From Natronomonas marina (lineage in GTDB: Archaea; Halobacteriota; Halobacteria; Halobacteriales; Haloarculaceae), in NCBI RefSeq assembly GCF_024298905.1, contig NZ_CP101154.1, positions 1,364,001-1,428,000 of the forward strand: a stretch of DNA of 64,000 nucleotides, written 5' to 3'. The notes under the pieces are model-generated. The model was given only the letters and a program-made list of their open reading frames with translations, made no database searches and was not told where the DNA came from. The translations under genes were made by a program, and so were the position numbers. This document shows positions 38,899 through 44,058 of the stretch, piece by piece (within the stretch, counting starts at the first letter, position 1; every line of letters begins with the position of its first letter).

Positions 38899-39154
38899 TG
38901 CGCGGGGTCGGATTCGAACCGGACCCAGACGTGCTCGCTCCGCTGCGCGCGTCTGGTAGGGCTCGAATCCGGTCCTGCTCTTCGCTCGCTACGCTTGCTC
39001 ATGTGCGGGACCGGATTCGAACCGGGCGGCCTCGGTCGCTCGTGCGCGGGACCGGATTCGAACCGGAGGAAGACTCGCTACCGCTCGTCTTCCAGGGTTC
39101 GAATCGGTCCTGCTCCTTCCTTCGTTTTCTCGCTTCGCTCGAAAACTCAGTCAG
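38899..39154. repeat. Tandem T-arm-derived palindromes beside tRNA-Leu
   Basis: At least three partial copies of the tRNA 3' end (T-arm plus acceptor strand) occur: 38899-38922, 39002-39025 and 39043-39066, read on the plus strand as a variant of GCGGGACCGGATTCGAACC. Two of these face reversed copies (around 38959-38976 and 39102-39116), so each pair makes a long imperfect hairpin, for example 39048-39116 with GGAAGAC/GTCTTCC arms inside. The unit is repeated with different inner arms. It has no coding signal. Confidence 0.75.
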
Positions 39155-39239
39155 TGCGCGGGACCGGATTCGAACCGGCGGACCCCTACGGGACAGCGTC
39201 CTAAGCGCTGCGCCTTTGGCCTGGCTCGGCAACCCGCGC
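39155..39239 (-). tRNA. tRNA-Leu (anticodon UAG)
   Basis: 85 bases, minus strand. Acceptor stem GCGCGGG pairs with CCCGCGC, followed by discriminator A; CCA is not encoded. The anticodon stem-loop is CAGCG-CTTAGGA-CGCTG, giving anticodon TAG. A long variable arm and a T-loop GGTTCGAATCC are present, as in class II leucine tRNAs. No intron is seen. It reads CUA codons. Confidence 0.96.
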
Positions 39240-42720: not shown

Positions 42721-44058
42721 ATGAAGCGTGCCAACACGTTCGCCGTGCGGCCGCTCACCGACACCGATGAGCGGGTGCTACGGGACCTGTTGGACGCTTC
42801 CGCCGCTCTCTGGAACGAAGTCAACTTCCAGCGCCTCATGCGGTACAACGACGAAGACGGCTTCGAGGGCGACGTCTGGGACGCCGATACCGGCGATCTG
42901 GAAGGTCGATACAAAGGCGTCCTCGGGGCGTCTACCGCCCAGCAGGTAATCCGGAAAAACAGCGAAGCGTGGCGGGCGTTCTTCCGCCTGAAAGACCAGT
43001 ACTACGACGAGTCGGACACGTCGGTTACGGACCACCCGGACCCACCGGACTTCCGTGGCAACGAGGACGATGGGCGACAACTCAAGACCGTCATTCGCAA
43101 CACGTCGTACACCGTCGAATGGGGCGACTGCTCCCGGCTTGAGATACTGGTCGGGCGCGAGTTGAAAGACCGATACGACCACACCGGGCGTCTCCGGCTG
43201 GAAATCGCTGGCGACCCGAATTGGCCCGACTACGAGAAACAGGGCCGGTTAGACCTGTGGTACGACGAGACTGATAGCACCTTCCGAGCTTCGCAACCCG
43301 TGACTGTTTCTGATGATGCACGGGACACTCCACTGGCCGACGAGAAGGCCGCTCTGGATATTGGTGCGAACAATCTCGTTGCCTGTACCACGACGACCGG
43401 CGAGCAATATCTGTACGAAGGCTGAGAGTTGTTCGACCACTTCCGTGAGACGACGCGAGAAATTGCCCGGTTGCAGTCGAAACTCGAAGAAGGCCGATAC
43501 AGTAGCGAGCGTATCCGGCGGCTGTACCGGAGGCGAACCCGTCGCCGCGACCACGCCCAAGAAGCACTGTGTCGTGACTTGCTCGAACGACTTTACGAGG
43601 ACGGCGTGGATACGGTGTATGTCGGTGGGTTGACCGACGTGCTGGACACGCACTGGTCGGTCGAAACCAACGCGAAGACGCACAACTTCTGGGCGTTCAA
43701 GAAATTCACCGAACGACTGGTCTGTACGGCAGAGGAATACGGTATCTCGGTCGAAGTCCGGTCAGAGGCGTGGACGAGTCAAGAGTGCCCGCAGTGCGGG
43801 TCAACAGAGCGAACCACCCGGCAGCAGGACACGCTCACCTGTCCGTGTGGGTTCGAGGGCCACGCCGACCTCACGGCGTCAGAAACGTTCCTGAGACGGC
43901 ACACAGAGAAGGCAGTCAGGCCGATGGCACGGCCCGTGCGGTTCGAGTGGGACGACCACAACTGGTCGGAGTCACCACGCTCTCACCGTCCCAAAGAACG
44001 GCGCACAGACCCGAGTACCGTCCCTCGTGGCAGGAATGTTGCCTCCGGCGAGTCGTAG
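42721..44058 (+). pseudogene. tnpB: TnpB (RNA-guided nuclease family), interrupted by a nonsense codon
   Basis: The reading frame is open from 42721 to 44058 except for one TGA at 43423-43425, after QYLYEG and before ELFDHF; a single C-to-T change of CGA would explain it. Otherwise the protein of about 445 residues is complete: RuvC-I in [17 protein letters not shown], zinc finger [10 protein letters not shown]...CPCGF and RuvC-III in [11 protein letters not shown]. At the RuvC-II place the sequence reads VYVGGLTDV without the usual acidic residue, while [13 protein letters not shown] has a glutamate near the zinc finger. The gene may still give two fragments or be read through. Confidence 0.88.

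Follow-up and report, generated by a model that had tools for sequence, protein, structure and literature searches.

The tRNA-Leu(UAG) gene in the Natronomonas marina window (the whole 64,000-nt stretch analysed) is followed by a tail of palindromic units, and these belong to a repeat family that is conserved across Halobacteriales and whose hairpin is under structural constraint. Our best explanation, to which we give about an even chance, is that the tail represents palindromic recombination sites arrayed at a tRNA anchor and working like integron cassettes, a mechanism that we infer. The family is abundant beside essential genes in most Halobacteriales sampled and is apparently undescribed so far; no description of such tRNA tails was found in the full-text literature, including the accessible part of PMC11078007, though subscription journals are scarcely covered there and absence is not proof.

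The tRNA-Leu(UAG) tail

The first-pass annotation described copies of the T-arm and acceptor sequence beyond tRNA-Leu(UAG), and while the repeats and hairpins are real, its layout needed correction, as the tRNA lies on the minus strand and the tail runs leftwards on the plus strand. Direct repeats confirmed its three extra copies, and two of these are indeed paired with inverted partners as long hairpins whose inner arms differ (Table 1). Within the inverted arms, the T-arm matches well and the acceptor part poorly; the arms of unit 2 were returned by the repeat search as pair I1 (38902-38925 with 38955-38978). The leader type of unit 1 was seen again behind tRNA-Leu(TAG) in three genomes (G012, G017 and G005). 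The variant carried by copy 3 is the sequence of the tRNA itself in G014 and G016, which is expected if an incoming unit supplies the tRNA end and the old end is displaced outwards, although a later mutation is also possible.

Table 1. Features of the tRNA-Leu(UAG) tail, in window coordinates.
Feature	Position	Strand	Description
tRNA-Leu(UAG) gene	39154..39239	-	repeats correspond to its 3′ end, from T-loop to discriminator base
tRNA-Leu 3′-end repeat inside the gene itself	39157-39179	-	direct repeat
Unit 1 leader	39113..39153	-	contains small hairpin with loop GAGCGAAGCGAG at 39129-39140
Unit 1 hairpin	39048..39112	-	inverted T-arm, inner stem GGAAGAC/GTCTTCC, T-arm copy; covariance model 55.4 bits
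Copy 1 of tRNA 3′ end	39045..39067	-	right arm of unit 1; direct-repeat family D2
Copy 2 of tRNA 3′ end	39004..39026	-	41 bases past copy 1; without an inverted partner of its own
Unit 2 leader	38977..39003	-	type TGAGCxAxCGxAGxGAGCGAAGAGCAGG, common to tRNA-Leu(TAG) units in other genomes
Unit 2 hairpin	38904..38976	-	inverted T-arm, inner stem CCAGACG/CGTCTGG, T-arm copy; covariance model 76 bits
Copy 3 of tRNA 3′ end	38901..38923	-	right arm of unit 2; variant TCCGACCCCGCG in place of TCCGGTCCCGCG

The 360 nt tail folds at -175.7 kcal/mol, against -145.0 (sd 6.2) in 100 shuffles (z = -5.0), and since the same architecture stands behind seven other tRNAs of the same genome, the structure is not a product of chance. 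An Rfam scan of the window stretch and nine loci gave only tRNA (RF00005) above the gathering score. About 3.5 kb from tRNA-Leu, a TnpB-like (IS1341-type) protein was noticed by eye in two overlapping frames (window 42721-44058).

Anatomy of a unit and its structural constraint

Each unit opens with a tRNA-specific leader of about 40 nt, often with a small hairpin, followed by an inverted T-arm (GATTYGAACCC), CTG, two free base pairs, AGACG and a variable inner part. The second half reads CGTCT, the two complementary bases, CTCC, GGTTCRAATCC and the remainder of the tRNA 3′ end; the direct copy that closes each unit spans the host tRNA from T-loop to discriminator base. There are two conserved helices per unit and an inner part of very different length, and units stand in tandem at about 110-150 bp each.

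Eight units of the N. marina genome, belonging to seven tRNAs, served to build a covariance model (R1), and covariation was examined in an alignment of 148 model matches, 141 of them distinct. Pairing was found in 89.1% of cells as opposed to 78.5% in shuffles, and two-sided changes in 16 of the 22 base pairs, though pair counts on R1's own hits lean towards the R1 structure because the model comes from units of this genome. The covariation score was 0.305 against 0.131 in shuffles, a value reached by none of 500, and it falls to about 0.1 when the partner is slid by one column; these figures are indicative, since the alignment rows are related and the alignment was fitted to the model. The strongest covariation evidence lies in the free pairs and the T-loop pair. 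Between them, the two free pairs of the inner stem take all Watson-Crick forms, with 58 and 64 cells changed on both sides, and the T-loop base agrees with its inverted partner in 128 of 142 readable cases (61/6/8/67; 22 of 164 unreadable).

On the tRNA-sense strand, G.T exceeds A.C in the core columns (91/1231 versus 21/1154, OR 4.3). Without two columns the odds ratio is 2.1, and the badly paired outer columns likewise give 2.1. It seems that one strand does the folding, an asymmetry compatible with either folded single-stranded DNA or RNA.

Units at other tRNA genes of the same genome

Using the tail DNA as a query we found similar tails behind tRNA-Lys(TTT), tRNA-Val(TAC) and tRNA-Gly(GCC), the arms matching their own tRNA each time. 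With Leu(TAG), Asp(GTC), Leu(CAA), Arg(GCG) and Arg(CCT) this makes 8 unit-bearing tails among 43 tRNA loci, these being the loci from the Rfam tRNA model, a set from which tRNA-Pro and tRNA-Trp are absent. At E <= 0.01, R1 matched the genome 12 times, which makes 10 places once two mirror-strand duplicates are subtracted, nine of them behind the eight tRNA genes and one an orphan. The orphan carries the 3′ end of tRNA-Val(CAC) and lies 85 kb from that tRNA, which is itself without a tail, and the two look as if they had been parted by an insertion; no integrase was recognised within 1.5 kb of tRNA-Val(CAC) among open frames judged by eye. T-run terminators around units showed no difference, and the position of T-runs was uninformative.

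We rejected the loop motif GAGCGNAGCGA as a signature of tRNA tails, with 85 sites genome-wide compared to 68 for the reversed control and many of them in other hairpins. The motif AGCGNAGCGA is present in 12 of the 43 tRNA tails. The 85 GAGCGNAGCGA sites form hairpins with a conserved loop, GARCGNAGYGA, and stems unrelated in sequence, also away from tRNAs; this loop is a GNA mini-hairpin, and such DNA loops are stable. A second, shorter tail palindrome consists of an inverted acceptor strand, ACC, a hairpin such as TCGCGAACCCTGCGGGTTCGC, GGT and a copy from the T-stem onward, and was seen in the tails of L019, L016 and L011 and at tRNA-Ala(CGC), Ala(GGC) and Arg(CCT) of this genome. Gly and Arg tails have a recurrent AATCCCGAGAGACGCC...GGCGTCTCTCG after the T-loop. 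Directly upstream of the intact tRNA-Arg(TCT) gene lies a damaged copy of it (genome positions 100222-100493, L007/L049), in which a hairpin with loop GAGCGAAGCGAG takes the place of the acceptor end from the T-loop onward.

Distribution across archaea

A search for such tails at other haloarchaeal tRNA genes had been suggested earlier, and they were found across Halobacteriales. R1 matched all 20 genomes of the genus (E <= 0.001), and in an even draw from the phylum at E <= 1e-6 it matched 40 of 43 Halobacteriales genomes (6 of 7 families) and none of 203 others. The pattern GTCTNNCTCCGGTTCRAATCC matched at least 120 stretches of named genomes; among the 80 matches listed, 78 were haloarchaeal and 77 also had an R1 match. 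Two bacterial contigs from the same scan (L183 and L201) gave no model match and were taken as chance. Neither the viral contigs nor the phages that we searched for units gave a match.

Unit ends follow the host tRNA and cores are mosaic

To compare units with their hosts, 180 places were taken by hand from the model and pattern scans, setting aside mirror-strand matches, 13 weaker places and the loci of already sampled records (L155, L169, L196, L199, L211, L213, L221, L223 and L224). In this sample 164 units lie within 700 nt downstream of a tRNA on the same strand, typically beginning about 35-45 nt behind it, and 29 isoacceptors are represented. Over 17 nt, the right end of a unit shares 95% identity with the host tRNA and 67% with other types, and the host is the best match in 147 of the 164, with no other type equal. 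The left arm follows the host modestly in its T-arm half (84% versus 78%) and weakly in its acceptor half (46% versus 31%). The tRNA-Lys of G003 has a mutant T-loop (TTCAACTCC), and the change is present in all tail copies and in the matching inverted arm of three of its four units.

Cores were compared in 179 units with the right ends removed. High-identity pairs on the same tRNA type (n = 30) match through the leader, starting at a median of 52 nt ahead of the left T-arm, whereas pairs on different types (n = 25, 88% or more over 60 nt or more) begin to match at the T-arm, at a median of 3 nt before it and between -9 and +3 in 24 of the 25, and end at or near the right T-loop. Core identity reaches 88-97% on different tRNA types in different genera, and for 124 of 178 units the best partner sits on another tRNA type or is a unit without an assigned tRNA. 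Since matches between types begin and end at the T-arms, the T-arm-to-T-arm core is the part common to the tRNA families; with unrelated leaders a match must end near the T-arm, however, so this demonstrates a mosaic and not yet a mechanism.

Arrays and the genes between units

Across the genus tRNA-Leu(TAG) is followed by 0 to 3 hairpin units, with leader types in differing combinations and an order that varies by genome, and the longest array read has five units (tRNA-Ser(TGA) of G079). In an unselected sample, 63 of the 67 intervals between neighbouring units of one array measured 18-234 nt and 4 exceeded 1 kb. Two of the four are behind tRNA-Thr in G016 (L121), and there is one each behind tRNA-Trp in G016 (L131) and G015 (L115), the two Trp intervals representing one insertion present in both genomes. 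A targeted fetch of five places where units on one strand lie a few kb from each other added two gene-bearing arrays, at tRNA-Val(CAC) of G016 (L308, about 5.4 kb) and tRNA-Phe of G005 (L307, about 3.6 kb); the other three (L304, L305 and L306) were dropped as their units came from different tRNAs.

One set of enclosed genes, HicA/HicB-like, encodes HicA with a DUF7387 and a helix-turn-helix protein. Others encode a weak PIN match (below the Pfam cut-off) with a TrmB-like protein, TumE with HVO_A0114, a XhoI restriction enzyme with N6/N4 methylase, SIR2-like and GmrSD_N proteins, and a DUF234 ATPase matching the PADLOC candidate PDC-S27 with a GTPase and a small protein. The units flanking these genes are 98.1% identical over 107 nt (Phe), 94.2% over 171 nt (Val, first versus fourth unit), 91.6% over 119 nt (Thr) and 84.8% over 125 nt (Trp). 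Such near-identical flanks are what would be left by the joining of a gene circle with one unit, through either site-specific or homologous recombination. Scanning 14 proteins from four gene-bearing arrays gave no Phage_integrase match, and no cas match was found among the array proteins scanned.

Integrase elements and an interrupted tRNA-Cys

In G005 a tyrosine integrase gene (Phage_integrase) directly follows tRNA-Leu(TAG), and about 68 kb away a 58-nt partial tRNA-Leu precedes an intact unit. The 58-nt att of this element starts near the anticodon and lies outside the unit; the element has simply pushed the intact unit behind its right end. An integrase gene also adjoins tRNA-Leu(TAG) in G008. 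Inspected by eye, the right end of the G005 element (L301, about 1500-1643) holds a second, inverted partial tRNA-Leu with a tail unit that points towards the att copy, as though units were picked up by mobile elements. In Halosimplex salinum (L163, 3720-3800, also by eye) the 3′ half of tRNA-Thr(GGT) and its unit array are severed near the anticodon from the 5′ half.

A plasmid of Haloarcula halophila carries a further tRNA-Cys that is interrupted at the T-loop, reading ...GTCGGT, leader hairpin and core, GGTTCGAATCC... R1 scores it at 49.8 bits, and the Rfam tRNA model covers the whole as a single tRNA containing an insertion. When its flanks were joined a tRNA-Cys was called, with a poor predicted T-stem as the join is a few bases off. 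Only GGT is doubled at the insertion, which indicates the T-loop as the junction; the alternatives are a deletion of the doubled 3′ end or an intron. The plasmid (NZ_CP119561) also has a tRNA array (L316, 1858-4993), with 23 predicted tRNAs in the 8-kb stretch, sitting between genes for a B-family DNA polymerase and a TROVE-domain (Ro-like) protein, and a similar array was seen on a Natribaculum breve plasmid (L317).

Interpretation of the arrays

In the explanation that we favour, small palindromic cassettes would form an array whose anchor is the 3′ end of a tRNA gene. A putative site-specific recombinase would act on one folded strand, cutting at the T-loop (GG^TTC), and circular cassettes, either a unit alone or genes with one unit, would be joined to the tRNA or to a resident unit. 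Most cassettes would be empty and a few would carry toxin-antitoxin or restriction genes; in integron terms, the tRNA would correspond to attI and the hairpin to attC, with tRNA sequence serving as the site. Each incoming cassette would supply a matching 3′ end and shift the old one outwards, which would leave the tRNA intact. Of the origins proposed by the first-pass annotation, repeated integrations fit best, though not by way of ordinary tRNA integrases, given the intact unit displaced in G005. Several observations sit less comfortably with recombination of cassettes: neither a recombinase nor a circular cassette was observed, nor any gain or loss among strains of one species; the enclosed genes may simply be ordinary islands that homologous recombination between units brought in; few intervals contain genes (4 of 67); the left arm tracks the host modestly or weakly; the strand asymmetry shrinks to OR 2.1 without two columns; and units were without a match in the viral contigs or phages.

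We also entertain, tentatively, a broader proposal of an archaeal gene-capture platform, in which a recombinase would join circular cassettes at tRNA anchors via T-arm palindromes and parallel integron-like arrays in most haloarchaea would store and shuffle toxin-antitoxin and defence genes. If the cassette explanation is true, this would be a new kind of gene-capture system based on tRNA sequence. The units offer a possible route for defence and toxin-antitoxin genes to gather at tRNAs without an integrase of their own, and each unit is a searchable, strand-specific structural marker.

The main rival is an RNA element of the pre-tRNA trailer, a hairpin co-transcribed with the tRNA that could serve in 3′ processing, in stability or as a processed small RNA. 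The strong structural covariation, the weak wobble asymmetry of G.T over A.C on the tRNA-sense strand, the typical position about 35-45 nt behind the tRNA on its own strand and the fold of the window tail (z = -5.0) would all suit it, but we think it unlikely. Units are patchy, occurring at 8 of 43 tRNA loci in their own genome and in numbers from 0 to 3 at a single tRNA, some of them are separated by 1-5 kb of genes, orphan units lie far from any tRNA, and T-run position gave no help. It is this patchy presence, together with the mosaic cores, the rows, the enclosed genes and the orphans, that leads us to favour a recombination module over a plain RNA gene.

We judge it improbable that the tails are a passive by-product, with template switching making tRNA-end palindromes and unequal crossing-over and gene conversion between direct repeats multiplying them. 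This would explain why arms track the local tRNA, even the mutant T-loop of the G003 tRNA-Lys, and the tandem duplications of 135 bp (Asp) and 152 bp (Lys). Template switching alone, another suggestion of the first-pass annotation, does not account for cores that are 88-97% identical across tRNA types and genera. Likewise, the fixed mismatch beside the inner stem (CTG on the left, CTC on the right) should have gone under palindrome correction, and the inner-stem base doublet is variable yet nearly always complementary.

Scars (attR copies) of ordinary tRNA-targeting tyrosine integrases are very doubtful. The first-pass annotation's view that the tail is not a simple att-site duplication is upheld by inverted partners conserved across Halobacteriales. 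The repeated part is the classical att segment and integrase genes adjoin tRNA-Leu(TAG) in G005 and G008, but simple scars are without an inverted partner or core, the 58-nt att of G005 begins near the anticodon outside the intact unit, and there was no integrase among the proteins tested between units.

Comparison with known systems

Integron cassette arrays comprise attI, attC and IntI, and attC has the core GTTRRRY / RYYYAAC and works as folded single-stranded DNA. The tRNA-anchored units resemble them in forming rows of palindromic sites at one anchor, with conserved arms, an asymmetric inner stem and a variable terminal loop, and in that some cassettes carry toxin-antitoxin genes. The attC core is not found in the units, where the T-loop reads GGTTCRAA. 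They also differ in that the sites are made of tRNA sequence, at least 29 tRNA types can serve as anchor, most units are empty and no IntI was found among the 14 proteins of four gene-bearing arrays.

Archaeal tyrosine recombinases use tRNA att sites, as described in the accessible part of PMC8371274, and share with the units the tRNA 3′ end as repeated segment. A classical att site was rejected as an identity for the units; the direct repeat is present, but the units add an inverted T-arm and a core and stand in tandem, no int gene was found in them, and real integrase elements lie outside and displace them. Bacterial REP/BIME and CGTC-tagged palindromes are, from what is available of PMC3733652 and PMC12306157, likewise short and without a transposase of their own, but they are scattered extragenic elements with fixed ends, while 164 of the 180 sampled units stand behind tRNAs and take their ends from the neighbouring tRNA. 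The PATE and SMR elements of Haloquadratum walsbyi (SMR-A about 110 bp) are also haloarchaeal, short, transposase-free and palindromic, and they are set apart by their description, the available portion of PMC3119063 stating no tie to tRNA genes or tRNA-derived arms. MITE/SMR elements in general end in inverted repeats whose sequence is fixed and may or may not show a target duplication of fixed length, whereas the inverted repeats of the units are tRNA-specific and the plasmid tRNA-Cys insertion doubles only GGT. Nor are the arrays CRISPRs, which have identical repeats, unique spacers and cas genes; the spacers between unit repeats are related leaders and cores. Haloferax volcanii has tRNA-like elements that are reportedly processed by RNase Z. 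The units are similar in mimicking the T-arm and acceptor, but their T-loop is fully paired with the inverted copy, so that the hairpin form presents no free T-arm.
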